Assembly (NCBI GenBank): GCA_903876875.1
Contig: CAIRBT010000033.1
Coordinates: 1 to 54,595, forward strand
From: an uncultured Geobacteraceae bacterium
GTDB taxonomy: Bacteria > Desulfobacterota > Desulfuromonadia > Geobacterales > Pseudopelobacteraceae
Direction: 5' to 3'
Length of the DNA: 54,595 bases
A model generated the notes under the pieces. It was given only the letters and a program-made list of their open reading frames with translations, was not told where the DNA came from and did no database searches. Numbering within the stretch: the first letter of the stretch is position 1; each line of letters begins with the position of its first letter. The position numbers were made by a program, and so were the translations under genes. This document shows, one piece after another, positions 32,138 through 51,287 of the stretch.

Positions 32138-32146
32138 TGTGCAGTG

Positions 32147-33544
32147 ATGGAAGATAATCAACAGGTTGTGCAGCAACTCTTTCAGGAGGGAGCGGAACTG
32201 CTCCAACAGGGGGACGCCGCCGCTGCCCTGAAACGGTTCCAGGAGGCACTGGCACGGAACGCTGCTGTCGCACTGCTCCATCTCTATGCCGGCACCGCAC
32301 TCCACGAACTGGGCCGTTATGAAGAGGCGATCGCCGCCTACCGTTCGGCTCTCGAAATCGCTCCTCAAGCGGGGGAAGTTCATAACAATCGAGGAAACTC
32401 GCTGATGGCTCTCGGTCGTTTTACCGAGGCCGTTGCCAGCTTCAGCCGGGCTGCCGAGCTACTGCCCGCATCTCCCGTGCCACTCACCGCCCGAGCCACC
32501 GCACTGCAAGCCCTTGGCATGGTACGGGAGGCCGAGACTGACTGTCGCCGTGCCCTGACCATTGATCCCGCCTTTGCCGAAGCCCACTGGAATCTCTCCC
32601 TCGCCCTGCTGCTCACGGGGAAGTACCATGCCGGATGGCAGGAATATGAATGGCGGTGGCAACGCCCGACCTTTACCTCCCCGCGCCGTCATGACGACAT
32701 TCCGCTTTGGGACGGCACCCCCCTTGATGGCCGCACCATTCTTCTCCACGCCGAACAGGGCTTTGGCGATGCCCTACAGTTTGCCCGCTATATCCCGCTG
32801 GTGGCCTCCCGTGGCGGCAGGGTGGTGGTGGAGTGCCACCCGCCACTGGCAACCCTCCTGGAATCCGTAGCGGGGGTAACAGCAGTGCTCCCGTTCGGAG
32901 TACCGGTGCCGCCGGCCCATTGCCAGGCACCCCTGCTTTCTCTCCCCCGCATCTTTGATACCACCCTTGAAAGTATTCCGCAGCAACTCCCCTATCTCTG
33001 TGCTCCGGCCGGTTATGGTGAAAAATGGGCGGTACTACTCCCCCGGCGGGATGATACGCTCCGCATCGGTCTGGTATGGGGGGGGAAGAGTTATCCCGAT
33101 CCGCTCCGCTCCGCCCGTCTTGCCGACTTTGCACCACTGGCCGATATGACGGGGGTACGCTTTTATTCCCTGCAGATCGGTGAAGCTGCACTGCAGGCCA
33201 CCTCACCTCCAGAGGGTATGCAGCTGATTGATGTCACAGGACAGATTGGCGACTTTGCCGATACGGCCGCCCTTATTGACGAGCTTGACCTGGTTATCAG
33301 TATCGACACCGCCGTGGCCCATCTTGCCGCTGCGGTGGGAAAACCGGTGTTTCTGCTACTACCACTGGCAGCGGACTGGCGTTGGCTACGGGAGAGAAGC
33401 GATTCCCCCTGGTATCCGGGGATGGAGTTGTTTCGGCAGCGGCGTTCCGGCGAGTGGGGTGAGGTGGTGCAGCGGGTGCGGAGCGCGGTGATCCGGTGGA
33501 GTGGCGGGCAAAAAAAATCCTTCAGGAATGTCCCAAAGGATTAG
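32147..33544 (+). CDS. TPR protein with GT9-like glycosyltransferase domain (single module)
   Basis: The 465-residue protein has about four TPR units (residues 8-140; LHLYAGTALHELGRYEEAIA, VHNNRGNSLMALGRFTEA) followed by a glycosyltransferase-like region (about 165-450). Marker motifs are WDGTPLDGRTILLHAEQGFG near residue 185 and SIDTAVAHLAAAVGKPVFLL near residue 380; the latter resembles the nucleotide-sugar loop of GT9 heptosyltransferases. The ATG at 32147 or GTG at 32144 may start it. It is a one-module version of the giant four-module protein at 35999-41425, so it is probably part of the same surface-sugar system, though the target is unknown. It appears co-transcribed with ilvA. Confidence 0.85.
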   Translation: MEDNQQVVQQLFQEGAELLQQGDAAAALKRFQEALARNAAVALLHLYAGTALHELGRYEEAIAAYRSALEIAPQAGEVHNNRGNSLMALGRFTEAVASFSRAAELLPASPVPLTARATALQALGMVREAETDCRRALTIDPAFAEAHWNLSLALLLTGKYHAGWQEYEWRWQRPTFTSPRRHDDIPLWDGTPLDGRTILLHAEQGFGDALQFARYIPLVASRGGRVVVECHPPLATLLESVAGVTAVLPFGVPVPPAHCQAPLLSLPRIFDTTLESIPQQLPYLCAPAGYGEKWAVLLPRRDDTLRIGLVWGGKSYPDPLRSARLADFAPLADMTGVRFYSLQIGEAALQATSPPEGMQLIDVTGQIGDFADTAALIDELDLVISIDTAVAHLAAAVGKPVFLLLPLAADWRWLRERSDSPWYPGMELFRQRRSGEWGEVVQRVRSAVIRWSGGQKKSFRNVPKD

Positions 33545-33572: not shown

Positions 33573-33953
33573 TTACTCGCCCGCTTTGGTCCGCAAGCCG
33601 GATGCGATATTAAAATTAATATCAATGACAATCGTCAGCTTTTCCGGGTCGGGGAACGCCATGACCTCAAAGAGACGTTTGTCTATGAACAGACTGAGGT
33701 TAAGAATATCTTCACGAAGATTCCTCGGCAGCGGGTTGTCCGGATCGGATAACTCGGCCTGAAAAAAACTCCAGACCTTCTGATTGAACTTGATCGCCTC
33801 CTGCAATTTCTGGTTGCGATCCGGAGAACTCCAGTTTTCCTTGACACTCTTCAGCATCAGACCGGCACGGGAGAGTACCGATGCCTCCAACTCCCGGCCA
33901 CTCAACGTCTCTTTTTGAATAGTAGTATAGGCATTAACCGGGTTTTGTAGCAT
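33573..33953 (-). CDS. flaF: Flagellin regulator FlaF
   Basis: FlaF, known best from Caulobacter and other alphaproteobacteria, is needed for flagellin synthesis or secretion and counteracts FlbT. The 126-residue reading starts at MLQNPVNAYTTIQKET, the family N-terminus, after a GAGGAG site 11 bases away. The signature GRELEASVLSRAGLMLKSV and the helix NQKVWSFFQAELSDPDNPLP are present. It overlaps flbT by 20 bases and lies last in the set flagellin, small unknown protein, flbT, flaF. Confidence 0.87.
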   Translation of the reverse strand: MLQNPVNAYTTIQKETLSGRELEASVLSRAGLMLKSVKENWSSPDRNQKLQEAIKFNQKVWSFFQAELSDPDNPLPRNLREDILNLSLFIDKRLFEVMAFPDPEKLTIVIDINFNIASGLRTKAGE

Positions 33954-34329
33954 AATCCATGAGCTCCTCTTCATAGGTAATAAGTTTTTTAGCAACTTTT
34001 AACGCAGAATAAAAGTCAGCATCGACAATATACGTGCTTACCTGCGAAATCAAGACATTTGTGCTTGGTGCCGCAGCAAGCACCTCCCGGGCAAGATCCC
34101 AAAACAGTTTTGAAAGATCCTCCGTCATGCCACCAATATACATGAGCTGTACTATGAGATAGATCCTCTTGCAGGGGGAGGTGGCCTCGGCTTCAGTCAG
34201 AATGTCCTTCTGCCTGAGCAGGGTGGCCTGACTTTCAATCTGCAAGTGGGCAACGGTAGGTCCGTTCTTTATGACGGTTCCAGCCAGGATAACCCTTTCA
34301 CCTGGTTTGAGGGTCAGTTTAAGGGGCAT
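33934..34329 (-). CDS. flbT: Flagellin mRNA regulator FlbT
   Basis: In Caulobacter FlbT binds the 5' leader of flagellin mRNA and promotes its decay until the hook is complete. The 131-residue protein has the FlbT start PLKLTLKPGERVILAGTVI, a middle strand KRIYLIVQLMYIGG and the C-terminal helix ADFYSALKVAKKLITYEEEL. A hairpin in the leader of the nearby flagellin gene (35898-35912) is a possible target. It starts 3 bases after the preceding gene and overlaps flaF. FlbT/FlaF pairs are typical of alphaproteobacteria, so the module may have been acquired. Confidence 0.87.
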   Translation of the reverse strand: MPLKLTLKPGERVILAGTVIKNGPTVAHLQIESQATLLRQKDILTEAEATSPCKRIYLIVQLMYIGGMTEDLSKLFWDLAREVLAAAPSTNVLISQVSTYIVDADFYSALKVAKKLITYEEELMDYATKPG

Positions 34330-34332
34330 CTT

Positions 34333-34965
34333 CTAGGACCGCATAACCAGATTAACGGTGGACTCCTGGACAAGGTTAATCTGGCTGGAAATAACGTCAA
34401 GCTGCTTGGCCGCAGCCATTACGTGGCTATGTGGTGCATCCTGCGGAAGTGACTGCACCTGAACCGAACTCCCCGTGCCACCGGTCAAGCCGTCCCACAG
34501 ATGCTTTACCTTGTCGTAGAGCGGCGCAGGTGGTGCGGGGAGCATCAGGCTCTGGAGCTGCTGACGCAGGGAAGAGTACCCCATCAGTTGCTCCATCCGC
34601 CCTTGATCCTCAACCGGATAGGGGGGATAGTTTTTGACAACGTTGTCCAGCGTTGTCTTCATTTTCTCCGTAAGGGCACTGGCAGCCGTAAGCCCTTCAT
34701 AGGTCTGACGGAGGTTGGTGGCCAAAGAGTTGAGAATGTCCGAAGCATTGCCGATCCGCTGCAGGGTGTCAATGGTGTTCTGGGGCACGTTAATCTTGAT
34801 GGAAACCGTATCCCCCCCCAGGGATTGCACCGAATCCGATTTGCTGCCGCTGCCGAAATCCGGCTGCTGTGAGGACTTGGGTGCCAGTGTCTGTTGAATT
34901 CCCGATTGCTGCATCTGTAAGGCGGTTGCAACTGCAAGCCGCTGATCGTTACCATCTATTATCAT
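34333..34965 (-). CDS. Hypothetical protein between flagellin and flbT
   Basis: The 210-residue protein is not recognised. It has no signal peptide or membrane helix. A Ser/Gln-rich N-terminus is followed by a helical middle (IDTLQRIGNASDILNSLATN, LTEKMKTTLDNVVKNY), a Pro-rich spacer (MLPAPPAPLYDKV) and a C-terminal helix (VISSQINLVQESTVNLVMRS). Its place just before flbT in the same direction suggests a flagellin chaperone, export or regulatory role, but nothing in the sequence proves it. The ribosome site GGAGG lies 7 bases before the ATG. Confidence 0.65.
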   Translation of the reverse strand: MIIDGNDQRLAVATALQMQQSGIQQTLAPKSSQQPDFGSGSKSDSVQSLGGDTVSIKINVPQNTIDTLQRIGNASDILNSLATNLRQTYEGLTAASALTEKMKTTLDNVVKNYPPYPVEDQGRMEQLMGYSSLRQQLQSLMLPAPPAPLYDKVKHLWDGLTGGTGSSVQVQSLPQDAPHSHVMAAAKQLDVISSQINLVQESTVNLVMRS

Positions 34966-34995
34966 GGGTTGGTTACCTCCATCGCTGAAAAGCGT

Positions 34996-35022
34996 AAACG
35001 GGGAGAGGTTGCCCTCTCCCCG
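34996..35022 (-). terminator. Intrinsic terminator after the flagellin gene
   Basis: On the minus strand CGGGGAGAGG and CCTCTCCCCG form a perfect ten-pair stem closed by a GCAA tetraloop, followed by TTT. It lies 37 bases after the flagellin stop and before the downstream hypothetical gene. Partial read-through would give a low level of flbT/flaF relative to flagellin. Confidence 0.8.
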
Positions 35023-35058
35023 CGTCGGTTAAAACCTGCTATCGTTGTTCACGAGCTG

Positions 35059-35874
35059 TTAGAAGAGTTTGAGAACCGACTGGGCAGCCTGGGAAGAGAG
35101 ACTCAGTGCTGTGGTTCCGAGGGACTGACGGGTCTGCAGAGCCAGCATGTTCGCACCTTCCTGGTTCATATCGGCCAGTGTCAAGTTGTCGGATCCGACC
35201 TGAAGCGTATTGATCATCGAATCGGTGAAGGTCTGACGGGTGGTGATGGTTGTCAGGTTACTTGCCAGTGACGAAGACTGGGTACGCAGGGTTGTCAATG
35301 CCGTATCCATGAAAGCGTTGGTACTGGCAGCGTTACCGCTGGTCATCCAGCTACCTGCTGAAGAGATACCCAGGGTTGAAGCGTCGGCACCGAAACCGTT
35401 AACGGTCAGGTTGGCATCGCCGGTTTTCTGGCTGAACTCGATTGAAAGTGTACCGGAAGTCAACAGGTTGGTACCACGATAGCCGGCGTCACTTGCCAGC
35501 GTAGTAATCTGGCTGGCGATGGTGTTGAACTGGGTTTCGTAGGTGGCCTGGGACAACGTATCGTTGGTTGCTGCCGCTGCACTGGCAAGACCTTTGGCGG
35601 ACTGGATCAACCCGGTAATTGCGGAGATACCGTTGTCAGCACTTTTGATGGTCTGAACGGCTTCGCTCATGCCGTCTTTACGGTCTGCAAGGTCACTTGC
35701 ACGGTTGGTTGCAGCTTGGGCGGCGAAAAAGTTGGTCGGATTATCAAGGGCGGTGTTTACTTTTTTACCACTGCTCAGACGATTCTGTGTCTGGGTAACT
35801 TGGGTTGCTGTCTGCTGAAGTGCGAGGAGGTTGTTCCTCATGCCTGCGGTAAGTGAGATATCTGAGATTGCCAT
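35059..35874 (-). CDS. fliC: Flagellin, short form with alphaproteobacterial-type ends
   Basis: The flagellin monomer builds the external filament. The 271-residue reading begins at MAISDISLTAGMRNNLLAL, after AAAGGAG. The conserved D0/D1 ends are present: QNRLSSGKKVNTALDNPTNF at the N-terminus and LALQTRQSLGTTALSLSSQ at the C-terminus, ending VLKLF. The variable middle is only about 100 residues, so no large outer D2/D3 domain is expected. The NPTNFF pattern is like flagellins that work with FlaF and FlbT. Many Ser/Thr residues in the middle could be glycosylated. It has its own sigma28-type promoter and follows the giant glycosyltransferase gene. Confidence 0.95.
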   Translation of the reverse strand: MAISDISLTAGMRNNLLALQQTATQVTQTQNRLSSGKKVNTALDNPTNFFAAQAATNRASDLADRKDGMSEAVQTIKSADNGISAITGLIQSAKGLASAAAATNDTLSQATYETQFNTIASQITTLASDAGYRGTNLLTSGTLSIEFSQKTGDANLTVNGFGADASTLGISSAGSWMTSGNAASTNAFMDTALTTLRTQSSSLASNLTTITTRQTFTDSMINTLQVGSDNLTLADMNQEGANMLALQTRQSLGTTALSLSSQAAQSVLKLF

Positions 35875-35897
35875 TGTGATGCTCCTTTCTAGGTTGT

Positions 35898-35912
35898 TCC
35901 GGAAAAACCGGA
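35898..35912 (-). promoter_or_regulatory. Hairpin in the flagellin 5' leader, possible FlbT target
   Basis: On the minus strand TCCGG and CCGGA form a five-pair stem with a TTTTT loop, just before the flagellin ribosome site and about 16 bases after the predicted start. In Caulobacter FlbT acts on the flagellin mRNA leader; a similar role here is inference. Confidence 0.4.
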
Positions 35913-35935
35913 TATGCATTCTGCATTTAATCTAC

Positions 35936-35962
35936 TCATCGACCGGGTGACGAAAAACTTGA
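35936..35962 (-). promoter_or_regulatory. Sigma28 (FliA) promoter of flagellin
   Basis: The minus strand reads TCAAGTTT, 11 bases, GTCGATGA, close to the sigma28 consensus TAAAGTTT-N11-GCCGATAA with 13 of 16 positions matched. The start would be near 35928 with a leader of about 55 bases. Late flagellar genes are typically under FliA control. Confidence 0.75.
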
Positions 35963-35998
35963 GAAGAAATTTCGCACCAGGGAAAAAAATATTCCTAT

Positions 35999-38900
35999 TC
36001 ACCCCGTCGCTGCGAGTTTTTCCGTCTGCTTGCGTACCAGTGCCGCTGCAACTACCTGTAATAGTTCCGACCATTCGGTATCGGCACCTTTCCGAAAGAG
36101 GGTCATGGTCGGGTACCAGGCGGTGCAGCTCCCCCCTTGAGACCAGCGCCAGTCGGCACCGTGGGGGAGCAGAGTCCAGGTCGGGACGCCAAGGGCACCG
36201 GCCAGATGGGCAACGGCGGTATCAATGGTAACAACCAGATCCAAATTTACCATGAAGGCGGCGGTATCGGCAAAGGTGTGGAATTCTGCCGTGTGGTCGA
36301 TCACGGTGAAGCCAAGGTTGTGGGCAGCACACTGTTCCGAACCATCCCCTACCTGCAGACTGTATACTTCGACATTCGGAATGGCGGCCAACGGCGCAAA
36401 ACATGCCAGGGGACAGGAACGCTTCCGGTTCAGCAGTTGCCCCTGCCTGCCATGCCAGACAATGCCGACTTTCAACGCGCGGGATGGTGCCAGTCGCCCC
36501 TGCCACTGCATGCTCTCCCCAGCGGGAGCCGTCAGATAAGGAACCGTGGCCGGGATGGTGTCTACCGTGGTGCCAAACAGGAGCGGTAGGGACATCATCG
36601 GCAGATGGTATTCAAACGCGGGGAGCGTTTCACCGGCTGCGTACACCTCCGCCACCCCGGCAACGGAGGCTAACAACCGTTTCAGAGCCGGAACCTGACA
36701 CTCCAGAATGACCCTGCCCCCCCGTGCTGCCACCAGAGTTGCATAGCGGGCAAATTGCAGGGTGTCGCCAAACCCCTGCTCGGCATGGAGCAGGATGGTG
36801 GCACCTTCAAGCCGGGCACCATCCCAGCGGGGCGCGGAAAAGGCACGCTGTGGCACCGGACTCCCCTTTCTGAAACGCCATTCGAACTCCTGCCACCCCG
36901 CTCCATAGTCACCGACCGCCAGAAGAGCCAGCGACATATTCCAGTGTCCCTCCCCATACTCAGGGTGCAGCTCAATGAGTCGCCCATAGACGGTGAGTGC
37001 CTCGCCCAACCGTTCCTGAGCAGTCAGTACGCCGGCCAGGTTATTCAGTAAGATGGCCCGTTCCGGATCCAGAGCCAGGGCCCGGCGATAGCATGCTTCG
37101 GCATCCGCCAACTGGCCACTGCACTGGTAGGTGCTTCCCAGCATATTGAGGGCGTTGATACGCCCCGGCTCCAGGAGCAGTGCCCTCTGATAGGCGGTGA
37201 TCGCATCGGCAAACCGCTCCTCTTCCCGGCAGATATCGCCCATACCCTGAAAAGCCTCAGCAGAGGCAGGGTCAAGCAGCAAGGCGGTTCGATAGTGAAA
37301 GAGGGCACCCGATGTATCGTGGGTCATTTTGCGCAGCTCACCCAGAGCCAGGTGAGCCGGAACAAAAGTATCCCGCACCAGCAGTACCTGTTCAAAGCAG
37401 CGGGCTGCGTGATCCGGCTTCCCCTGGGAGCGGAAACTGTTCCCCATGTTAAAGAGTGCTTCCGGGTAATCTGCCTTAAGAGCCAGTGCTTTCCGATAAC
37501 GAGCCACTGCATCGTCGTAGCGCCCTAAACTATCAAGGGTAACGCCATGGTTGCAGTAGGCTTCCGCATCGTCCGGGTGTGCGGCGACCAGGGCGGCAAA
37601 TTGCCGTTCAGCCTCCTCTATCCTCCCCGCACGCAGCAACTGGAGCGGAGCCTCACGGGGTAACGCACGTTCAGCAATCCAGTCGGTCAAAGCCTGGCAG
37701 ATCTGACTGATGACCGGCTGCCACGCTCCGGCAGCTGCCTGACGGAACAGCTTCATCGACGGGTACCAGGGGGAATCATCCCGTTCCAGCAGCCACCGCC
37801 AGTCCGCCACAAAGGGGAGCAGCGTCCAGACAGGTCTGCCAAGAGCACCGGCCAGATGGGCTACGGCCGTATCAACAGTGATGACCAGATCGAGATGCTC
37901 CAGCAGGGCAGCCGTATCGGCAAAGTCCGTGATGGTGCCGGAGTGATCCACGAAAGGTACGGCGCTCGGTATTGGCGTCCGGGTGACCACCTGGAGTGAG
38001 TGGAATGTTATCCCCGCACTCTTCCAGAGTGGAGCCAGCAACTCAAAGGGGCAGCTTCGCTCCGGACTTGGCTCCCGGTTCCCCTCCCAGGCCAGACCAA
38101 CGTTCACGCTTCCGGAGAAGGGTGCCATGATGGCCGCCCACCTGCTCCGATAATCTGCCGGTGCCTGAAGATAGGGGATAGAGGCCGGAATGGTTGCTTC
38201 CGTGGTGGCAAAACGGTGAGGAAGGCTCTGCACCGGAATCTGAAAATCAAAGGAGGGAAGTGCCTCCTCCGGCGTCACTACCTGGGAGACTCCCGGTACC
38301 GTGGCCAGCAGGGGTGCCAACTCAGGAAGGGACAGCACGAGAACCCGTGCCCCCCGTGCTGCGATGAGGGGGGCGTAGCGAATAAACTGGAGCATATCTC
38401 CCCGCCCCTGCTCCATGGGGATGAGGAGGGTTTTGCCTGCCAGCGAAGAACCGTCCCAGAGCGGGAAATCGGGGGCTGGATTCCTGGCCAGAAACTTTTC
38501 CGAGTGCCAGCGCCACTCATACTCCTGCCATCCCGGGATGAAATCCCCTTGACGGAGCAGCAACGCACCCCGCAACCAATGGGCGTCGGCGTGAGCCGGG
38601 GCGAGGGCAATGGCCGCTTCCGCCGAAGAGAGTGCCTCTGTGTACCACCCCACCGCCTGACAACTGAAGGCACGGTTAAACCAGCCCTTCAGGAAGAGCG
38701 GGTCCCGACTCGTCGCATGGCGATAGGCGGTAATGGCCTCTTCTGTTCTCCCCTGCAGCTGGAGCGCAACCCCCAGACTCTGGTAAGGGTCGGGAAGTTC
38801 GGGAGCCTCTGTGACAATACTCCGGAAGCAGCGTTCCCCGGCAGCTCCCCTCCCCTGCTCCACCAGCCAACAACCGTAGGAGTAGCGGGCCGGGATGCCA

Positions 38901-41425
38901 ACCGAAGGGGAGGTGACGACATGGTCGGTCAGTAACCGCTCAAGCTCACTCTTTACCCTGCCCATAACGCCACCCCACCCCTCACCGGCGGTCTGTTCAA
39001 ATGCTGTCATGGTCGGATACCAGGGGGAGTGCCGGTCACCATGGAGCCAGCGCCAGTCGGCCAGGGCCGGCAGCAAAACCCAAACCGGTCGCCCCAGGGC
39101 TCCGGCCAGATGAACCACGGCGGTATCGACCGAAATAACAAGATCAAGGGAGGCGATCAGCGCGGCGGTCTCGGTAAAATCGGTCAACGAGGAGGCCACA
39201 TCGACGATGGTCATGGCCGGTGCCGCCGTCGCCACCTCACGTGAGATATCCCCCACCTGCAGACTGTAAAAGGCAACGCCCGGCAGCTTCGCCAGGGGGG
39301 TAAATTCCGTTACGGCACAGGAGCGATCCCGGTCACGGGGGTTGTCCGGATTGCCACGCCACACCAGGCCAACGTTATAGACAGCATGACCGGTCAGTCG
39401 CTGCTGCCACCACCGTACTTTAACCGGATCGGCATGCAAATAGGGAGCCTGCCCCGGAACGGTGTCAACGGTAGTGCCACAGAGAGCGGGGAGGCTGAGC
39501 GACTGGATATAGTAGTCACTGTTCGGCGGCGTAGCCGATTTTGCCACAAGGGTGCCTACGCCGGGGAAATTTCTCAGGAGCGGAATAAGCAGGGGATCAA
39601 TCTCTAAAATGACGTATGCACCCTGTTCGGCAACCAGCGTAATGTAGCGGGCAAGCTGAATGGTATCACCCAGTCCCTGTTCGCAGAAAATCAGCAGACT
39701 TTTACCGGAAAGAGCCGAACCGTCCCACCGTGGTTGCCGGTAGGTACGGCCATCAATAGCAAGGGAAGCCATGGAGAGCCGCACCTCAAAATTGGCAAAG
39801 CCCTGCCGGTAATCGCCGGTATGCAGTTGCAGGAACGCCAGGTTGTAGCGTGCTATGGCGTTATCCGGTGCCAACCGAAGAATGGCGTGGCAGCATTCAA
39901 AGGCATCGGGAAGCTTGCCCTGCTTTACCAGTGTTTCCCCCAAGTGCATAAGAATGTCAACGGAATCGGGCTTGAGCCGATGGGCTCGCTTGAGTGTTGC
40001 CTCCGCTTCGACCAACTCCCCCCCCTTCAGAAGGGCGCGGCCGAGATTAAAAGGAATGACCGGCAGATCACCAATAAGTCGGGAAAGAGCTTTCAGTTCA
40101 CGGATAGCACTATCATCGTCACCCCGTTCCAGCCCCCCTAACGCACTCTGAAGTCTCGGTTCCAGAAGGTCAAGGGTTGCCTCCGTGATGGTAACCTGCG
40201 GATAGCGACTGAGCAGAGCCTCTCCGATGCGACCGATGACCGCCTGCCACTCCCCGGCCCGTTCCTGGCGGAACAGCTCCATGGTCGGATACCAGGGGGA
40301 GTCGGACCTGTCTGTGAGCCAACGCCAGTCGGCATGGGCCGCCAGCATCAGCCAGACCGGTTTACCCAGGGCTCCGGCCAGATGTGCCGTGGCGGTATCA
40401 ATGGTGATTATCAGGTCAAGGTTGGCCATGAACGCCCCACTGTCGGCAAAACAGCGGATCTCGCCCCCCCGGTCGGTGAGGAGTCGTGCCATTCCAGGGG
40501 GAAGCGAATCTCCTGAGTGGTCGTCCGGCTGTAATGAATAGAAGCTGACGCCCGCCAGGGTCAGCAGCGGTAGCAACTCTTTCGGCGGGCAGGAACGTTC
40601 CGGGTAGGGAAAAGGCTTGCCACTCCAGACCAGGCCCACGGCGACAGTGCCCTCCCGGCGGGAAAAACTGCTCCGCCACCGGTCACTCACCTCCGGCGGA
40701 GGGGAGAGGTATGGCACCACATGGGGAATGGAGTCGGCGGTGGTGCCGAAGAGGAACGGCAGGCTGAGCAGCGGGATATGGAAATCGGTAACCGGGGGTG
40801 AGGGAGCTTTGGCAAAAACCTGTTCGACACCGGGAAGCTGTTGGAAGAGTGTCACCAGCGGTTCCTGTACCTCCAAAAAAATCCGCGCCCCCAGACGAAC
40901 CAGCAGCGGCAGATAGCGCACAAACATCAGGGCATCGCCAAACCCCTGTTCTCCATAGACCAGCAGGGTACGATGCCGCAGAGGGGAACCATCCCAGCGG
41001 GGCTGGCTGTACTGCCGGTCATCAAGACCGGCCATGGCTTCAAACCGATATTCGTAGTCAGCAAAACCGTCACGGAAATTGCCGTTCCGGAGCAGGTGAG
41101 CCGCCCGGTTGTAGCGGGCTTTGGCGTTATGGGGAGCGTCGGCAATCACCGCCTCGTAACAGCGGAGTGACTCCTCCTCCCGGCCACGGCGGTCGAGCAC
41201 ATAGCCCAGATTCAGGAGTGTTTCCAATGACCGGGGGACGCTTGCAAGCACGGCACGAAAAGCAGCTTCCGCGTCTTCATAACGGCGCTCAGCCGTGTAT
41301 GCCACACCCTGGGCAAACCATGCTTCGGCGGTGCGGGGGACTAGTGCCGGGTGCTCTTCCCCCGCTGGAGACGGGGAAGACTCAGCCAACCGGAAGTCGC
41401 CGTTGCCTGATAGACCGTAGCTCAT
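35999..41425 (-). CDS. Giant TPR-glycosyltransferase with four tandem TPR/GT9-like modules
   Basis: The 1808-residue protein consists of four TPR-plus-glycosyltransferase units in tandem, at about residues 33-410, 411-840, 841-1255 and 1256-1808. Each has a WDGxxL...EQGxGD motif (near 144, 567, 990, 1534) and a (S/T)xDTAxxHLAGALGxP loop (near 341, 765, 1183, 1733), the latter like the GT9 nucleotide-sugar loop. All four keep both motifs, so none looks decayed. Module 4 has about six TPR units, the others two or three. There is no signal peptide or membrane helix, so it acts in the cytoplasm. It overlaps the preceding glycosyltransferase by 4 bases and lies 124 bases before flagellin; flagellin glycosylation is the likeliest role, by inference. 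Confidence 0.88.
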   Translation of the reverse strand: MSYGLSGNGDFRLAESSPSPAGEEHPALVPRTAEAWFAQGVAYTAERRYEDAEAAFRAVLASVPRSLETLLNLGYVLDRRGREEESLRCYEAVIADAPHNAKARYNRAAHLLRNGNFRDGFADYEYRFEAMAGLDDRQYSQPRWDGSPLRHRTLLVYGEQGFGDALMFVRYLPLLVRLGARIFLEVQEPLVTLFQQLPGVEQVFAKAPSPPVTDFHIPLLSLPFLFGTTADSIPHVVPYLSPPPEVSDRWRSSFSRREGTVAVGLVWSGKPFPYPERSCPPKELLPLLTLAGVSFYSLQPDDHSGDSLPPGMARLLTDRGGEIRCFADSGAFMANLDLIITIDTATAHLAGALGKPVWLMLAAHADWRWLTDRSDSPWYPTMELFRQERAGEWQAVIGRIGEALLSRYPQVTITEATLDLLEPRLQSALGGLERGDDDSAIRELKALSRLIGDLPVIPFNLGRALLKGGELVEAEATLKRAHRLKPDSVDILMHLGETLVKQGKLPDAFECCHAILRLAPDNAIARYNLAFLQLHTGDYRQGFANFEVRLSMASLAIDGRTYRQPRWDGSALSGKSLLIFCEQGLGDTIQLARYITLVAEQGAYVILEIDPLLIPLLRNFPGVGTLVAKSATPPNSDYYIQSLSLPALCGTTVDTVPGQAPYLHADPVKVRWWQQRLTGHAVYNVGLVWRGNPDNPRDRDRSCAVTEFTPLAKLPGVAFYSLQVGDISREVATAAPAMTIVDVASSLTDFTETAALIASLDLVISVDTAVVHLAGALGRPVWVLLPALADWRWLHGDRHSPWYPTMTAFEQTAGEGWGGVMGRVKSELERLLTDHVVTSPSVGIPARYSYGCWLVEQGRGAAGERCFRSIVTEAPELPDPYQSLGVALQLQGRTEEAITAYRHATSRDPLFLKGWFNRAFSCQAVGWYTEALSSAEAAIALAPAHADAHWLRGALLLRQGDFIPGWQEYEWRWHSEKFLARNPAPDFPLWDGSSLAGKTLLIPMEQGRGDMLQFIRYAPLIAARGARVLVLSLPELAPLLATVPGVSQVVTPEEALPSFDFQIPVQSLPHRFATTEATIPASIPYLQAPADYRSRWAAIMAPFSGSVNVGLAWEGNREPSPERSCPFELLAPLWKSAGITFHSLQVVTRTPIPSAVPFVDHSGTITDFADTAALLEHLDLVITVDTAVAHLAGALGRPVWTLLPFVADWRWLLERDDSPWYPSMKLFRQAAAGAWQPVISQICQALTDWIAERALPREAPLQLLRAGRIEEAERQFAALVAAHPDDAEAYCNHGVTLDSLGRYDDAVARYRKALALKADYPEALFNMGNSFRSQGKPDHAARCFEQVLLVRDTFVPAHLALGELRKMTHDTSGALFHYRTALLLDPASAEAFQGMGDICREEERFADAITAYQRALLLEPGRINALNMLGSTYQCSGQLADAEACYRRALALDPERAILLNNLAGVLTAQERLGEALTVYGRLIELHPEYGEGHWNMSLALLAVGDYGAGWQEFEWRFRKGSPVPQRAFSAPRWDGARLEGATILLHAEQGFGDTLQFARYATLVAARGGRVILECQVPALKRLLASVAGVAEVYAAGETLPAFEYHLPMMSLPLLFGTTVDTIPATVPYLTAPAGESMQWQGRLAPSRALKVGIVWHGRQGQLLNRKRSCPLACFAPLAAIPNVEVYSLQVGDGSEQCAAHNLGFTVIDHTAEFHTFADTAAFMVNLDLVVTIDTAVAHLAGALGVPTWTLLPHGADWRWSQGGSCTAWYPTMTLFRKGADTEWSELLQVVAAALVRKQTEKLAATG

Positions 41426-43386
41426 GTCCGCTGTTCGCCCTGTCCTCCCCCGGCTTTACGAGCCAGTACGTCGATAAAACGCCGCAGAGGAGCCAACTTG
41501 CTTTCGTCAGGGAAGTAGCGGGCCGCATCATCAAGCCATTGCCGGGCAGCATCGACATGCCCTCCGACCGCCAACCCCTGGGCTGTGTCCGAAATATAGG
41601 AAAAAAACAGACTTTCCAACAGTTCCCGGTTGTTGTCCCGGTCCGCAATACCTTGCCATTTATTCAGAAAGAATTTGCGGTTTTTCAGAAGAATTTCCCC
41701 GGCGGTGCGACTCTGTTCATAATAGCCTATCTCACGCAGTGCCCGGATGGAGCCGCTCCAGTGGTGGTCATAACTGGTCACCGGCACCACATAGCTTTTT
41801 AAACCGGCGCGTTTGATCTGCAGCCCCAGATCCCACTCTTCAAAGTAACAGGGGGTGAAGCCGTTTTCAAAGCGGATAATCTTGTCGTTGAAGTGCTGGA
41901 GACGAATCGCGAAAAAGAAGCCGGAAACCGCATCGACCTCCATTGGAGTGTGAACCGCCCCCTTGTCGTAATAGACATAGTCACGGGTCATCGAAAACTC
42001 GACAAAACTTCCTTGGGGGCCGACACAGGCGGCAAGCGGCAGCGTGGTGAGAGCCCGTTCCAGTTCGTCTACCGCCTGCTGCTCCAGATGGAGATCGGCA
42101 TTGAGAATGAAAACCACCGGAGTGACGGCCATCTCCAACCCCAGGTTCCAGGCACGAGCAACGCCGATATTCTGTTTCAGTACGGCATAGCGGGTGATAC
42201 GGGGGTGCGACTTCAGGTGTTCGGCAATTTCCTGACCGTTGAACACAATAATAACCTCCCCCTCTATGTCCTGCAAATCCTCAAGGAGGGTCACGATATT
42301 GTATTCGCTGGCCGGGGACATATCCAGCACCGGAATAACGAAACTTCGGCTGGAGGAACCGATACAGAGATGTGCCGGATTATCCCGGTCTACGGCCGGC
42401 ACGTTCACCAGGGAGCGTTGCCGCAGCTCACCGGCGGAGCAGGTATCCGACTTCCCTTCGAGTGCCACCGCCAGCAGGTCTTCGACGCGATGTCCATAGG
42501 TATGGGCGTTGAGCACCAACCGCTGCCCCCGGGCGGCAATCTGCTCCCGCAGTTCTTCATTCTCCAGATAAAAGGCGGCAACATCACCGATGGCGGCATC
42601 ACGGTAGAGTGCATAATCCTCCCCAGCCCTGAACAGTTCATCCTGGCCACTGTTACGAGCCATGTCGGAGAGCAGCAGGGAACCGGTGGCCATGACCTCA
42701 AAAACCCGCATGTTCAGATCATTTTTGACCGCTTCATTAAAGACGATTTTAGAGCGGCTGAAAACCTGTGCCATGTCATCCCAGAAACAGCGCTCGTAGT
42801 GAACCGGAATGGTGGCCGAAAGGGCAGAGAGCAGACCTTCCCGCCGGGTTCCGGGCTGGACACTGCCGACAAAGCCGACCTGATATTCCCCGGTCGGTTC
42901 GGTTCGGCGGTGGATGTCGGGACAGCAGGCCAGCGGAAGCCAGTGAACCCGTATCCCCTGACGGCGGAAATCATCCAGATATTCCCGCTGGGCAATGAAC
43001 ACCATGTCAAATTCTTTGGCCCACTCCAGATGGGTGGCGAGGTTCAGGTGCGAATCGATCAGGTAGCAGACCTTGGGACAGGTCACCGCCCCCAGGTTCA
43101 GCGGGTAATGGCCGCCGACCGATTCAACCCACAGGTACAGATCGGGAAGGTCACCGGGGGGGGTGGCGGCAAGCAGTGCTTTCATATCCGGGTTCGGGCC
43201 GGTCGAAATATTCTGCTCGGTCAGCGGCAGCTTCATATTCTGCAACTTCCATCGCTCGATCAATTCGGGGGGGAACGGGGGGCCAATGGTCGTGGTACGG
43301 CAACAACTTCTCAGGGCTCGTTCCAGATAGGCTGCAGTGGTAACCGGGTAGGCTACATACGCCAGCCAGACATGTATGTTTTTCAT
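41422..43386 (-). CDS. Two-domain glycosyltransferase (GT4-like plus GT2-like)
   Basis: The 654-residue protein joins two transferase types. Residues 1-330 are a GT-B fold with a CgeB/GT4-like end, AVKNDLNMRVFEVMATGSLL, where the Glu lies in the nucleotide-sugar site. Residues 345-600 are a GT2-like GT-A domain with IGVARAWNLGLEMAVTPVV and the metal motif around ILNADLHLEQQAVDELERAL. The last ~50 residues are helical. It is probably a cytoplasmic enzyme that adds two sugars or types of linkage. It overlaps its neighbours on both sides by 4 bases, within the glycosyltransferase cluster. The donors and acceptor cannot be read from sequence. Confidence 0.85.
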   Translation of the reverse strand: MKNIHVWLAYVAYPVTTAAYLERALRSCCRTTTIGPPFPPELIERWKLQNMKLPLTEQNISTGPNPDMKALLAATPPGDLPDLYLWVESVGGHYPLNLGAVTCPKVCYLIDSHLNLATHLEWAKEFDMVFIAQREYLDDFRRQGIRVHWLPLACCPDIHRRTEPTGEYQVGFVGSVQPGTRREGLLSALSATIPVHYERCFWDDMAQVFSRSKIVFNEAVKNDLNMRVFEVMATGSLLLSDMARNSGQDELFRAGEDYALYRDAAIGDVAAFYLENEELREQIAARGQRLVLNAHTYGHRVEDLLAVALEGKSDTCSAGELRQRSLVNVPAVDRDNPAHLCIGSSSRSFVIPVLDMSPASEYNIVTLLEDLQDIEGEVIIVFNGQEIAEHLKSHPRITRYAVLKQNIGVARAWNLGLEMAVTPVVFILNADLHLEQQAVDELERALTTLPLAACVGPQGSFVEFSMTRDYVYYDKGAVHTPMEVDAVSGFFFAIRLQHFNDKIIRFENGFTPCYFEEWDLGLQIKRAGLKSYVVPVTSYDHHWSGSIRALREIGYYEQSRTAGEILLKNRKFFLNKWQGIADRDNNRELLESLFFSYISDTAQGLAVGGHVDAARQWLDDAARYFPDESKLAPLRRFIDVLARKAGGGQGEQRT

Positions 43387-44426
43387 AGAGGTTTCCTTGT
43401 CAGACAGTGTGTGCCGATGGCATGAAACTGCCGCGCCGCCTTATTCCACGCCAGTTGTTTCATATCTTCGGCGGCAATGGCTCCTTTTTCGTGGCAGAAA
43501 GAGCGGTTCTGATAGGCCGATTCCAGCCGGAACAGTATTTCTTCAACGGAGTTTTCATACCAGACCGCCGACGGTGCCCCGCTGCCATTGGTAATGAGTA
43601 ACGGTTCGTAACTGGTCAGCGGCAGGGCATTCTGTTCAGTAATGACATCGCCATGACCGGTGCTGTCGTTGGCAATAACGGTACGGCCACACGCCATGTA
43701 CTCGCACATGACCATATTGTTCCCCCCCTCACAACGATTGGGAAACAGGCCAATGTCGGTCTGCTGGTAAATCTGTCGGATCAGTGTATTGTCAACGAGG
43801 GGTGCCAGATAGACCCGGTCGGGCGGAATACCGTTTTCAGAGAGGGTTCGGTGCAGAATAGTTGTACAGTCATCGTCACCAGGGTGAAAGGTGATGTGGG
43901 AGGAGCGCGCCATGGTCGCCACGGAAAAGGGCCACTGGTTCCCCCAACTACAGGCGAGATAGGCGTCCTTGTGTCGTGCCATGAACACCTTCATGGCGGC
44001 AATCACCAGATCCTGCCCCTTCCGATATTCAAACTTCCCCCCGGAGAACACAATGAAACGGCCATCGTCAGCCCGAAATGGGAGCTTGTGGAAATTGGCC
44101 GGGTCGATCCCCTGCAAAACCGTGGCGGTCTGGCGCACACCACCAATTCGCAGCTGATACTCGCACCACGAAGAACCGGCAACGATAAAATCCCACTCAC
44201 GGGCGGCACGGCGCGTATGGCGAAGAACTTCAATATCATTTTCAAAAAAACAGTAACCGATATTGATACGGCTCCGTTGCCCAGGGTCCATGGGGCGCAG
44301 GTCACAGCCGGAGATGCAGTGGAGGGTCACCCCCTCAAGGGGGGGCAACGCGGCAATTTCGCGGGACAGGTATTCACCGGCAATGCCCCAGCCATGGGCG
44401 CGCCCGGTGGGCATGGAGACTCTCAT
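43383..44426 (-). CDS. GT4-family glycosyltransferase
   Basis: The 347-residue reading starts at MRVSMPTGRAHGWGIAGEYL; its ATG overlaps the stop of the TPR gene in an ATGA. A longer frame to 44480 lies inside that gene and is not used. The C-terminal half has the GT4 pattern GLFPNRCEGGNNMVMCEYMA with the catalytic-loop Glu pair. The donor-site start FIVFSGGKFEYRKGQDLVI is typical of retaining GT-B enzymes. It seems to be cytoplasmic, part of a coupled set with the two-domain transferase and the giant TPR-GT protein. Substrate unknown. Confidence 0.87.
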   Translation of the reverse strand: MRVSMPTGRAHGWGIAGEYLSREIAALPPLEGVTLHCISGCDLRPMDPGQRSRINIGYCFFENDIEVLRHTRRAAREWDFIVAGSSWCEYQLRIGGVRQTATVLQGIDPANFHKLPFRADDGRFIVFSGGKFEYRKGQDLVIAAMKVFMARHKDAYLACSWGNQWPFSVATMARSSHITFHPGDDDCTTILHRTLSENGIPPDRVYLAPLVDNTLIRQIYQQTDIGLFPNRCEGGNNMVMCEYMACGRTVIANDSTGHGDVITEQNALPLTSYEPLLITNGSGAPSAVWYENSVEEILFRLESAYQNRSFCHEKGAIAAEDMKQLAWNKAARQFHAIGTHCLTRKPL

Positions 44427-45601
44427 ACTGGCTGGGCCGCACCTATGGTCCGGAGAGATTCTGCCGCATCCAGGTCCCACGGTTTGATGGCAAGCAGCTG
44501 TTCAAGGAAAAAGCGGGCATCTTCCTGCCGGTCTATCTCCAGACAGATATGGGCAATGGCCTTCAGTAGCTCCACATCGTAGCGGTTCTCGGCAAACAGT
44601 CGGACGTAGATATCCAGTGCCTCTTCAAAGGCACCAAAATCGCAGTAGAGAAGGTCGGCCAGATTCTTGGCAAAGGTAGTATTTTCCGGTTGCAGCCGCA
44701 CCGCCGCTTCATGGTGATAGCGGGAGGACGTCCGATCACCGGTTTTCTGGTAGAGAACCCCCAGATCGTTATGGGCAATGGCACTGTCCGGAGTTGTGCT
44801 GATAATCGTTTGCAAAAGTGCCACAGACTCATCCAGCCTCCCCTCGTTGGCCAGGCTAACCGCCTCCTGATAGAGATCGACGGCTGAAGAGGCCGGTTCG
44901 GCGGCAATCGCCAGAAACAGATCCTGAAAAGAAGAGGTGACGGGGGCGGGTGAGGCCGCTGACGGTTGAGCCATTGACGGTTGTGGCGTTAGCAGTGGAG
45001 CCGGCTCCAACCAGGGAGCCAGCGCTGCTGGTGGGGGTGGGGGTGGTTGGGTAACTGCTGCCGGCAGTGGAGGCGGTTCCGGCTGGACGATCTGCTTCTG
45101 GGGGGCTGCCGTCCCGGAGGGGGGGGGGAGCTGTTGGAGCCCATGGGCCGCCTCGAAATTATTCACATCAATCTGCAGGGTGCGGGTGAAATACTGGCGA
45201 GCCTGCTCCCTGCGACCAATTTTCTGACTGATGGTTCCGAGGGCGTTCAGGGTTTCAATATCAAAGGCGTTATCCTTGAGGATATCCAGATAGGTGTTGA
45301 TAGCCTCTCCGGTCCATGCAAGTTCCACAAAATAGAAATCGGCCAGTTTTTTCCGGAACACCACATTGGCCGGTTCAAGCTTATGGGCCTTTTCATAATG
45401 AGCCAGTGCCTTCAGGGAATTTCCGGCCTGATAATACATGACCGCCACATCGTTATGGGCCTGGGCGAAATCCGGGTAGATTTTCAGAAAATCCTCAATA
45501 TGCCGAAGCCCCTCATCGGCTTCAACCTCGCGTACTTCGGTCAGAATCCGCTCATAGGTTGCGGCTCCCTCAATCAGGATTAAGCTGTTTTTATTCTTCA
45601 T
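44423..45601 (-). CDS. TPR-repeat protein with proline-rich linker
   Basis: The 392-residue protein has two TPR blocks. The N-terminal block (about 20-165; AHNDVAVMYYQAGNSLKALA and ETLNALGTISQKIGRREQAR) is joined by a Pro/Ala-rich linker (about 160-225, with runs of Pro near 170-195) to a second block (about 240-385; AIAHNDLGVLYQKTGDRTSS). No enzyme domain and no signal peptide are seen. It is probably a scaffold that gathers glycosyltransferases or their target. It lies 69 bases after the first gene of the cluster and overlaps the next by ATGA. Confidence 0.82.
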   Translation of the reverse strand: MKNKNSLILIEGAATYERILTEVREVEADEGLRHIEDFLKIYPDFAQAHNDVAVMYYQAGNSLKALAHYEKAHKLEPANVVFRKKLADFYFVELAWTGEAINTYLDILKDNAFDIETLNALGTISQKIGRREQARQYFTRTLQIDVNNFEAAHGLQQLPPPSGTAAPQKQIVQPEPPPLPAAVTQPPPPPPAALAPWLEPAPLLTPQPSMAQPSAASPAPVTSSFQDLFLAIAAEPASSAVDLYQEAVSLANEGRLDESVALLQTIISTTPDSAIAHNDLGVLYQKTGDRTSSRYHHEAAVRLQPENTTFAKNLADLLYCDFGAFEEALDIYVRLFAENRYDVELLKAIAHICLEIDRQEDARFFLEQLLAIKPWDLDAAESLRTIGAAQPV

Positions 45602-45670
45602 TGGTTCCCGTCTCCCCTCAAAATGTCAGGCGGTAAAAGCAAAGTGTTTGTGGTTCACGTCATGAATGGC

Positions 45671-46894
45671 TTAGAACGGAGTAATGTTGAAGCCGTCCAC
45701 TTCATTGGCCGTCTTGTCCATGGGGCGACCTGACGCATCCTTCCCGTTAAAAGCAAATACCACGTGTGATGGGTCAATAACCGTATTGCCCGCTGCATCC
45801 TGGTTGAGCCGGAACACGAGTGTGGCCTCCTGGGAGGTGGCATCGTAGAAGACCGACTCCGGTGTGGGGGGGAGTGCCGCATCACGGGTGGACAGTGGCA
45901 TCATGTTGTTGTAATAGCCGCCACCGGTACTGTTAGCCCTTGAAATACTCCAGTTTTGGGTATTGGTAACCGATGGCACATCCATCGAAGTGTTGAAGCC
46001 GATGGTGACGGAAAAAGTTTTACTCGAACTGGGAGCGGTCAGCAGGGTAGGATCGAGCATCCAGAGCGGCGTGCTCGGCCCCAGATTCCCCATGAAACCA
46101 CCGCTCTTCTTGGTGTCCATGTAGATCATGGCCGGCTTGTCGAGGATGAACTTGAGATTGGTCGCCTGGGTCGGACTGGACGCTTGCAGCAGGGTCAACT
46201 GTTTTTGAGCGTCATCGGTTCGCCCCAGGGCATCATAGGCCACCCCCAGCTCATAATTAGCGGCCGGGAAATTCTTTTTAAGATTCAGGGCTTTTTCGAG
46301 ACTGGCGGCCGCCTCTTCGGAACGGCCCTGTTTGTTATAGACCATCCCCAATGCGTAAAACACGTTGCCATCGGTGGGAGAAATTTTCTTAGCCTTCAAA
46401 AATTGGGTTTCAGCTTCCGCCAGGCGATCCGTATTTGAATATTGCAGTCCCAAGGTGTAGGCCGGAAGGGGATTCTGGGGTGCCAGACTTGCCGCCAGCT
46501 TAAACTGTTTTTCCGAGGCACCATACTGTTTGTCCTGCAGATAGGCATTGCCCAGGCCGATAATGGCATCGACCTTTGTAGGGGCGTTGGCCGAAGTGTC
46601 GGCTATGGCTTGATTTGACTGGATGCGTACCAGCTGTTGATACGCCTTGATGGCGTCAGCATTTTTCCCCTGGGAGAGATAAAGCTTTCCCAGATAATTA
46701 TTGGCAGTGGCATTTTGCGGATCAATGGTCAGTGCCCTTTTAAAGGCACTGATGGCCTGATCCGTGCGGTTATTCTGGAGAAACGTGGCCGCCTGGAGCA
46801 CCGAATACTGGGCCAACTGTTTTTTCTGGCTGGTCAGATCCTGTCCAAGGACAATAAACGGGTCGCTGCTCCCTTCAAATACCGTACTTGCCAT
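45671..46894 (-). CDS. TPR protein with Ig-like C-terminal domain, first gene of the glycosyltransferase cluster
   Basis: The 407-residue protein starts with MASTVFEGSSDPF, then has about six TPR units (residues 25-245; SAFKRALTIDPQNATANNYL, ALGMVYNKQGRSEEAAASLE). A C-terminal beta-rich region (about 290-405) holds FSVTIGFNTSMDVPSVTNT and reads like a bacterial Ig/SbsA-type domain. There is no signal peptide, so if it leaves the cell it would need flagellar-type export or another path. It is the first gene behind a sigma28-type promoter (46932-46958), which ties the whole cluster to late flagellar expression. Ribosome site GAGGTGAGG is somewhat far. Confidence 0.8.
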   Translation of the reverse strand: MASTVFEGSSDPFIVLGQDLTSQKKQLAQYSVLQAATFLQNNRTDQAISAFKRALTIDPQNATANNYLGKLYLSQGKNADAIKAYQQLVRIQSNQAIADTSANAPTKVDAIIGLGNAYLQDKQYGASEKQFKLAASLAPQNPLPAYTLGLQYSNTDRLAEAETQFLKAKKISPTDGNVFYALGMVYNKQGRSEEAAASLEKALNLKKNFPAANYELGVAYDALGRTDDAQKQLTLLQASSPTQATNLKFILDKPAMIYMDTKKSGGFMGNLGPSTPLWMLDPTLLTAPSSSKTFSVTIGFNTSMDVPSVTNTQNWSISRANSTGGGYYNNMMPLSTRDAALPPTPESVFYDATSQEATLVFRLNQDAAGNTVIDPSHVVFAFNGKDASGRPMDKTANEVDGFNITPF

Positions 46895-46931
46895 TTGACC
46901 TCACCTCACCGGAGAAAACCGTATATCTTCT

Positions 46932-46958
46932 CTATCGGCATAAGAAACCACAGATTTA
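46932..46958 (-). promoter_or_regulatory. Sigma28 (FliA) promoter of the TPR/glycosyltransferase cluster
   Basis: The minus strand reads TAAATCTG, 11 bases, GCCGATAG. The -10 matches the sigma28 consensus GCCGATAA in 7 of 8 positions and the -35 keeps TAAA. The start would be near 46922, about 28 bases before the first ATG. The closely packed genes down to 35999 are probably one transcript. Confidence 0.75.
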
Positions 46959-50800: not shown

Positions 50801-51011
50801 CTGCCGCAATTGCCACAGGGGTATCGATAAGTCCGACTTTCCGTTTGCGGTGCTGTGTGTCAAGCTTGTGCATGCTCGTTGAGGCGGCCTTCCAATGGGC
50901 TTTCTTGGAACTGATATCTTTCTGGATATCATCGAGCTCTGCCCCAAAGGCAAGGCTGGCGGTGAGGCAGGTAGTGATAAGGATAGAGATAAGTCTGCTG
51001 AGTATTCGCAT
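47838..51011 (-). CDS. Secreted papain-family protease with BACON-like domain and seven repeats
   Basis: The 1057-residue protein has a signal peptide (cleavage near residue 23). A C1-type (papain) cysteine protease domain covers about residues 90-320. The catalytic residues are visible: Gln111 and Cys117 in QGDCGSCWAF, His256 in GGHAVTVVGYN and Asn279 in FIVKNSWGTGWGE. Residues 325-412 resemble a BACON domain. From 418 to the end there are seven ~90-residue repeats with the core T(D/A)TDN-GV-GYLIT...W(S/F)...YAWVKDAAGN-S, of unknown type. It is probably a surface or extracellular protease. A GEMM riboswitch and terminator precede it, so it should respond to cyclic dinucleotide. Ribosome site GGAGGG. 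Confidence 0.9.
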   Translation of the reverse strand: MRILSRLISILITTCLTASLAFGAELDDIQKDISSKKAHWKAASTSMHKLDTQHRKRKVGLIDTPVAIAAATLSANATGQVSTANLLYAPSGGMDWRNYGGVNYVTQVKDQGDCGSCWAFATTAVLESYALRQNFDTGLNLSEQIMLSCSGAGSCSGGYINKAAAFAQTTGVPADSFAPYTASDKACSSITTNWQSATDKIAGWQWVGYGTADVTTLKNAVFTSGPIVVAMRVYDDFFSYAGGVYSYTGGTLAGGHAVTVVGYNDDTSFPGGGYFIVKNSWGTGWGEAGGGDPGGYFRIAYSETGSVVKFGSQAIAYDTAAPTACDYTLTAGVTTNSFANYATFGVLATLDSCSWTVKSDSAWAQLLTSSGKGSASLSVSVPTYTGSTDRTATITIYNASGVAAGTTTLTQQANTAFVPPSVSSFSVPALTNSMTIPVSFSMAGGSSPALYAQITTTPIPPTTGWGSLPRTYTVTKQGPITLYGWAKDLGGAVSAPVTATVNVDTTPPVVTSFTVTPGTGVLKTALTATDDNSGVAAYLITTSSATPSATALWSGVNPVYYFGATSGTLNLYAWVKDAAGNISAPKLFSSSVDFSPPKVTSFTVPSFVDGLTIPIAGFTATDNVGVTGYLVNKGTTPLASDGAWSATPPKSYTVSSGGTVILYPWVKDAAGNISSIASGAFCQTVTPSHPTVTSFVVTNGAGSVLNVSMTATDDTSVISGYQITTTATAPPATGAGWSAIPLTSYTATSSGTFTLYAWVKDLAGHVSPAKTASATITLTKPMVTGFAVGLQTATNVVSITTFTSNLAAGTGYYLITEAAATPSATNGGWFTTPPASYSFPYGTSGSKTLYGWVKNAAGTVSASLSATISLDSQIPIVSSFVTPSIAPKTTVPITTFTATDNIGVTGYLITQSSAKPSLRDPGWSATVPTSFTVAGNSFQMIYAWARDAAGNISTPRSATTYVDNTPPLMLPLFVSPTAKGTTVAVQLLSALDDWSGIKGYLITESATAPAATDSRWSATAPTSYTTTSLGTKNLYGWAVDRMGNVAVRPSTAVVKFQ

Positions 51012-51052
51012 GATGATGTTCCCTCCGTGGTGAGGTTGGACGCTGAGGGCTC

Positions 51053-51085
51053 AAAAAAACGCCCTACTACGATTAAAGTAGGGCG
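51053..51085 (-). terminator. Riboswitch-linked intrinsic terminator
   Basis: On the minus strand CGCCCTACT (from 51085) pairs with AGTAGGGCG and is followed by seven T at 51053-51059. It sits between the GEMM aptamer and the protease gene, as expected of a transcription-attenuation riboswitch. Confidence 0.92.
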
Positions 51086-51097
51086 CAAGAGAAGCAA

Positions 51098-51178
51098 CAC
51101 CCTCTTTCAGGAGCCCGGCTGCCCCCTGTAGGGCCCGTGGCTTTGCGTCACCGGGTTACCCCGGCTTTGCGTTGTACA
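51098..51178 (-). promoter_or_regulatory. GEMM-I (cyclic dinucleotide) riboswitch aptamer
   Basis: On the minus strand the conserved GEMM strings are present: ACGCAAAGCC twice (around 51161-51172 and 51139-51148), the second after GGTG as in the consensus, then CACGGGCCCTAC, then GGGGGCAGCCGGGCTCC, the distal half that carries the tetraloop receptor. GEMM-I RNAs bind cyclic di-GMP; a Geobacter-associated subtype prefers 3',3'-cGAMP. Which one this is depends on one ligand-contact base that I cannot assign safely without an alignment. The RNA leads straight into the terminator at 51053-51085. Confidence 0.88.
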
Positions 51179-51181
51179 GAG

Positions 51182-51210
51182 AATTTATGTGTGTGGAGAG
51201 CTATCTGCAA
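51182..51210 (-). promoter_or_regulatory. Sigma70-type promoter of the riboswitch-protease transcript
   Basis: The minus strand reads TTGCAG, 17 bases, TAAATT, placing the start near 51175, just at the 5' edge of the aptamer. Confidence 0.55.
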
Positions 51211-51233
51211 GCCGTATAAAACCGACCCATTGT

Positions 51234-51287
51234 CAGAATAATACTATTTTATTTTTTTAACAATAAAATTTATGTACAATTATTCTG
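51234..51287. repeat. Nested AT-rich inverted repeat upstream of the riboswitch promoter
   Basis: The outer arms CAGAATAAT (51234-51242) and ATTATTCTG (51279-51287) are perfect complements, and inside them ATTTTATT (51246-51253) and AATAAAAT (51262-51269) pair as well. The element lies about 25-80 bases upstream of the -35, where an activator or bend-inducing protein could bind, or it could fold in RNA from the other side. No T-run terminator role is obvious. Confidence 0.55.

Follow-up and report, generated by a model that had tools for sequence, protein, structure and literature searches.

A probable FliA-timed flagellin glycosylation island with GT9-type modules in an uncultured Geobacteraceae bacterium

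We analysed a 54,595-nucleotide stretch of DNA from an uncultured Geobacteraceae bacterium (contig CAIRBT010000033.1, in our numbering C33; in the following, the window), whose genome assembly comprises 3.93 Mb in 191 contigs and is 95.84% complete. A flagellin gene is accompanied there by genes for glycosyltransferases (GTs) and tetratricopeptide repeat (TPR) proteins. Together they very probably form an island for the cytoplasmic O-glycosylation of flagellin that is timed by FliA (sigma28) and follows the logic of the transferase FlmG, with GT9-type catalytic modules. We infer flagellin to be the acceptor from the conserved sigma28-like sites, the placement between the TPR protein TPRBig and flagellin, the variability of the gene set among relatives, its loss in one of them and the glycosylation genes that replace it in others. 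The nearest named relatives of the window are uncultured Geobacteraceae and Desulfuromonadaceae as well as other delta-proteobacterial bins; G codes denote genomes (G000 being the own genome), L codes loci or stretches and g codes genera.

Organization of the gene set

The gene set is encoded on the minus strand and is read from 46958 down to 33516. It starts with a sigma28-type site (46932..46958, TAAA-N15-GCCGATAG), identified by pattern scan and position conservation, which is followed by TPRBig (45671..46894, 407 amino acids (aa), a TPR superhelix plus a C-terminal beta domain), TPR2 (44423..45601, 392 aa, two TPR blocks with a proline-rich linker between them), a GT4-type glycosyltransferase (43383..44480, 365 aa, Glyco_trans_1_4 match; listed with a GTG start, the likely start being the ATG at 44426), a GT4-GT2 fusion glycosyltransferase (41422..43386, 654 aa) and a four-module TPR-GT9 protein (35999..41425, 1808 aa). 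A second sigma28-type site, conserved in position among relatives (35936..35962, TCAAGTTT-N11-GTCGATGA), precedes flagellin (35059..35874, 271 aa, ATG at 35874), which has no outer-domain insert and matches Flagellin_N above and Flagellin_C slightly below the cut-off (22.1 vs. 23 bits). All genes of the five-gene cluster ending beside flagellin, as proposed by the initial annotation, are present. The described 4-base overlaps occur at three of the four junctions, i.e., GT4/GT4-GT2, GT4-GT2/TPR-GT9 and, provided that GT4 starts at ATG 44426, TPR2/GT4; TPRBig and TPR2 are separated by 69 bases.

Downstream of flagellin follow a conserved 210-aa protein without family match (34333..34965), FlbT (33934..34329, 120.3 bits), FlaF of the flagellin export chaperone family (33573..33995, 118 bits), both over their cut-offs, and a terminator-like stem-loop of 12 pairs with a T run (33516..33542). 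The number of terminator-like sites in the whole window is close to the shuffle level (18 vs. 14.8), and so is the result of a sigma70-type scan (8 vs. 7.2). On the plus strand, after a threonine ammonia-lyase gene and convergent with FlaF, we find a partner that had been overlooked initially and that occupies the same place in relatives, namely a one-module TPR-GT9 protein of FlmG-like layout (32144..33544, GT9 fold with a mean pLDDT of 90.7). The FlgO gene is divergent from TPRBig; beyond it, 47838-54579 of the minus strand encodes a papain-family protease with a BACON domain and a protein with fibronectin type III and Ig-like domains.

Both TPR-GT9 proteins match Glyco_transf_9, which together with the fold of the one-module protein places the modules in the GT9 family. 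The one-module protein combines TPR and GT-B domains in a single chain according to sequence match and predicted structure. In the four-module protein, the motifs EQGxGD, DTAxxHL and DWRW recur in every module, i.e., there are four complete GT motif sets, and the modules are mutually 37-44% identical. The GT41 family PF13844 is absent among the matches of both proteins, and in sequence searches against solved structures, the best 60 of 137 and the best 60 of 213 hits were all TPR matches. For TPR2 we propose the role of an adaptor of the glycosylation set. As a side observation, the large TPR-GT9 proteins of five species (L058, L064, L066, L067, L068) carry an extra C-terminal GT unit with inverted halves (donor half, TPR, acceptor half), which the four-module protein of the window does not have.

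Conservation of the sigma28-type sites

The pattern TAAA-N14-16-GCCGATA occurs twice in the window, at the head of the cluster and inside a cytochrome gene (28150-28176), compared to a shuffle mean of 0.07. Genome-wide, the same pattern is found 12 times and its reversed control 8 times, such that a consensus match alone proves little. The site of flagellin agrees with 9/12 consensus positions; its chance figure means little, since the pattern was fitted to the sequence.

We therefore rely on the position of the sites, whose conservation is the stronger evidence. Within the interval from -80 to -50 before TPRBig, which was picked after an initial look at site positions, the best site (at least 9/12) is located in 47 of 87 loci (47/85 distinct ones), compared to a mean of 1.3 and a maximum of 5 for shuffled upstreams of the 87 loci. 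This count excludes L171 and L176, which have no full-length TPRBig, and L115 and L119 are repeats of L034 and L035. When no interval is imposed, 49 of the 65 distinct TPRBig upstreams scoring at least 9 fall into two 30-base bins from -90 to -31. Before flagellin, the best site lies at -84 to -93 in 18 of 23 upstream regions from relatives or paralogs (11/12 plus 6/10 plus G008). The genome also encodes FliA (255.7 bits vs. a cut-off of 189.6). Conserved sigma28-like sites thus coincide with the presence of their sigma factor, which is in accordance with the two promoters proposed initially and supports a predicted class III (FliA) control of both flagellin and the cluster.

Variability of the island among relatives

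To compare gene orders we used 14 loci of a first relative set, of which L037-L040 were excluded for matching the TPR stretch only, leaving ten loci with full-length TPRBig. The order TPRBig-TPR2-GT4-GT4GT2 is kept in six of them (L027, L028, L029, L031, L032, L033), so conservation of the gene order, suggested earlier as a check, holds for these loci and fails for L030 and L036, which do not contain the set; L034 is cut after TPR2 and L035 ends shortly after TPRBig. Among 80 further relative stretches, which include second copies and two repeats, TPRBig, GT4 and GT4GT2 appear in order in 12 and TPRBig, TPR2 and GT4GT2 in 2 more. On the other side, flagellin, the 210-aa protein, FlbT and FlaF with the convergent one-module TPR-GT9 are also found in G001, G002, G003, G005, G006 and G007. 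The 210-aa protein itself shows 54-93% identity in L030, G001, G002, G003, G005 and G006 and 37% in G007.

Between TPRBig and flagellin the contents vary, with methyltransferases, radical-SAM proteins, a UDP-sugar dehydrogenase, a GT41-containing protein and further GTs among the 10 island proteins scanned. The distance from flagellin to TPRBig ranges from 0.15 kb (L030) via 9.8 kb (window) to 28.7 kb (G005). GT and sugar-modifying genes are located beside flagellin and differ between species, as in a flagellin glycosylation island. In L030 the enzyme set is absent as a unit and TPRBig is retained: TPRBig stands immediately before flagellin, and the one-module TPR-GT9 beyond FlaF is missing as well. 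By contig coordinates, L030 belongs to G035, a 100% complete genome without TPR-GT9 and GT4-GT2 at an E-value of 1e-60. The serine/threonine count of flagellin does not separate this GT-less relative (70) from the other flagellins of G001-G007 (62-77).

The own genome encodes two further flagellins (C31 and C144; L055, L056), which are 96-97% identical to that of the window; at -89, the C144 copy has retained a sigma28-like site and the C31 copy has none. We considered whether they have GT clusters of their own and rejected this, as both lie amid unrelated genes (10 neighbours scanned: methyltransferase, radical SAM, pdxA and cobalamin genes; hydrolase, PP-loop).

Flagellin size and enzyme type

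In a set of 117 genomes that includes the own one, we find a flagellin match in 80, TPR-GT9 in 80, GT4-GT2 in 39 and a match of the Maf family PF01973 in 17 (15 over cut-off). Flagellins with a reading frame of at least 450 aa were called long, which gives at least 11 long-flagellin genomes among the matches listed, where additional long paralogs are possible; G063 has a short flagellin too. The contig-end-cut flagellins of G034, G073, G075 and G099 were counted as short, because their matched part has no insert. Based on the matches listed, TPR-GT9 is present in 66/69 short-only genomes but in only 3/11 with a long flagellin (G021, G063 and G076, one match each), and GT4-GT2 in 36/69 vs. 0/11.

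We classified 47 flagellin loci from the 80 flagellin-positive genomes, a non-random sample of loci already fetched, against single reference proteins, such that the class 'none' can reflect a cut contig (G039, G030). Within 10 kb of flagellin, TPR-GT9 is found in 33/38 short and 1/9 long loci, Maf in 0/38 short and 5/9 long loci and TPR-GT41 in 1/9 long loci; some GT41 match, many of them weak, lies within this distance in 21/38 short loci. Three loci stand outside these tables (L216-L218, from G094, the second copy of G063, and G126): in G126, TPR-GT9 adjoins a short flagellin, and none of the three types is seen in the other two. Downstream of the long flagellin of G028 come a 272-aa protein with weak similarity to the 210-aa one, FlbT, FlaF, a 292-aa protein and Maf, the latter neighboured by PseB-like, PseC-like, NeuB and cytidylyltransferase genes. 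In G037, the corresponding protein has 203 aa and is likewise weakly similar, and FlbT and two TPR-GT41 proteins come after it; in general, long-flagellin loci hold only proteins of weak similarity at the 210-aa position. Separately, G104, G115, G121 and G123 encode PF01973 proteins of about 850 aa and have no flagellin match of this type (E-value 1e-20); these proteins may serve another flagellin.

The link between size and enzyme, as distinct from glycosylation itself, could reflect descent only, i.e., a small number of ancestral transfers with no coupling of function. Several long-flagellin genomes are indeed related (five in g1, two in g12), and the counts are of genomes rather than of independent switches. 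Short and long flagellins coexist in g1, g2, g6 and g12, yet TPR-GT9 presence shifts along with size only in g1 and g12, because the long-flagellin genomes of g2 (G063) and g6 (G076) retain it. We nevertheless regard pure descent as unlikely, given that both flagellin sizes and both TPR-GT9 states are found within g1 and within g12, that L030 has lost the set on either side of FlaF and that the class III promoter is conserved.

The enzymes might also make a lipopolysaccharide (LPS) or capsule sugar and merely share the late flagellar control. GT9 is best known as the family of LPS heptosyltransferases, GT4 and GT2 enzymes are frequent in LPS loci, and both TPR-GT9 proteins are hit by heptosyltransferase models, in each case far under the equivalog cut-off. 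This explanation is quite improbable in view of the conserved sigma28-like site and of the proximity of TPR-GT9 to short and of Maf to long flagellins; moreover, neither a flippase nor a polymerase nor a membrane-anchored starter enzyme is among the cluster proteins.

TPRBig

TPRBig is present in 84 of the 117 genomes; 16 genomes list two matches, in two cases (G030, G094) as pieces. This widespread flagellum-linked family carries no name in the sources consulted; among cultured relatives, Oryzomonas japonica, O. rubra and Pelotalea chapellei encode it. The protein has no hydrophobic leader, and its C-terminal beta domain, without family match, is Ig-like by our reading of the sequence; a fold search returned TPR superhelices among the best 50 of 1742 hits and was uninformative on this domain. 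A genome labelled Bacteroidota (G010; L036, L069) encodes TPRBig (42%) and two flagellins (58%) with 12/12 sigma28 sites, where the label is possibly a binning error.

That the set glycosylates another exported flagellar protein (TPRBig, a hook-associated or a cap protein) instead of flagellin is very improbable: TPRBig is the cluster's first gene and widespread, but it is retained where the set is lost (L030), it also occurs in loci where no GT of the window is recognised, and the enzymes follow the flagellin size class. TPRBig probably belongs to the flagellum generally rather than to the glycosylation set and may be a flagellin-handling or an exported filament-associated protein.

Proposed mechanism and its limits

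Flagellin glycosylation, put forward by the initial annotation as the simplest reading, is supported by the promoters, the island position and variability, the set loss and the replacement by Maf or TPR-GT41. In the mechanism we propose, FliA would turn on flagellin and the enzyme set once the hook is complete. The TPR superhelices of the one- and four-module TPR-GT9 proteins would bind new flagellin in the cytoplasm prior to export, and their GT-B domains of GT9 type would put the first sugars on serine/threonine residues of the exposed D1 face. Extension or capping of the chain may then fall to GT4, GT4-GT2 and the TPR2 adaptor, before FlaF would pass the flagellin, now modified, on for export. 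The protein with four modules could work in the manner of an assembly line or act on several sites simultaneously. As donor, ADP-heptose or an ordinary NDP-hexose is likelier than nonulosonic acid.

Several observations weigh against this picture. The donor feature of FlmG fails here: both NeuB-like (PF03102) matches in the genome are DAHP synthases, so a nonulosonic acid donor is unlikely, where at 95.84% completeness a missed NeuB gene is possible. No enzyme of the three types is seen in four of the 38 short loci (G026, G030, G035, G074), and G068 has GT41 only; G076 shows the reverse, i.e., TPR-GT9 beside a long flagellin. Since G035 combines a short flagellin with the absence of the set, the latter is dispensable for some short flagellins, and since 11/80 TPR-GT9-positive genomes have no flagellin match, the family may have other acceptors. 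Finally, Fisher p-values assume independence of genomes that are related.

A further-reaching idea is that in Geobacter-like bacteria a glycan coat, made by FliA-timed TPR-GT9 proteins of one to at least four modules with a non-nonulosonate donor, replaces the D2/D3 domains of short flagellins and that a lineage changes its flagellin size and its glycosylation machine in concert. We consider this possible though doubtful, all the more as g1 and g12 are the only genera that show such a joint change.

If the glycosylation mechanism is true, it would carry the idea of a TPR-guided flagellin transferase beyond a nonulosonate enzyme of alphaproteobacteria, to a multi-module set of GT9 type that spans a whole bacterial order. 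The states lost, TPR-GT9, Maf and TPR-GT41 would provide a natural series for testing flagellin glycan roles and outer-domain substitution, and multi-site TPR-GT9 scaffolds might find use in cytoplasmic glyco-engineering.

Comparison with known systems

Islands for flagellin glycosylation and flagellin transferases of TPR-GT type are already known, and to this extent the initial impression of a system not yet described does not hold. It stands for the multi-module GT9-type set and its exchange against Maf or GT41, for which we found no prior description in the open-licence literature.

The closest likeness is to FlmG of Caulobacter, as far as the sections of its report drawn on here describe it (PMC7591256). 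FlmG likewise joins an N-terminal TPR and a C-terminal GT-B domain in one protein, modifies flagellin in the cytoplasm and acts in a flagellin setting with FlaF and FlbT; its TPR domain binds flagellin in two-hybrid assays. This likeness concerns domain layout and gene setting, not a comparison of GT-domain sequences. FlmG requires pseudaminic acid and NeuB (PMC7591256), whereas the NeuB-like matches here are DAHP synthases, and the window adds GT9-type modules, one plus four, together with GT4 and GT4-GT2.

The flagellin glycosylation islands of Enterobacteriaceae are similar in their highly variable inserts of GT and sugar-modifying genes beside flagellin; these are located between fliC and fliA, unlike here, and the words TPR and tetratricopeptide are absent from the main text of the respective paper as accessed (PMC4875605). 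In five relatives with a long flagellin, including G028 with its nonulosonate gene set, Maf is located beside flagellin, FlbT and FlaF; it was rejected as a candidate for the own genome, which has 0 PF01973 matches. In TPR-GT41 enzymes of the OGT/SPINDLY type, two of which are encoded beside the long flagellin of G037, a TPR superhelix likewise feeds a GT-B domain, but the modules of the window match GT9, unlike these enzymes (PF13844).

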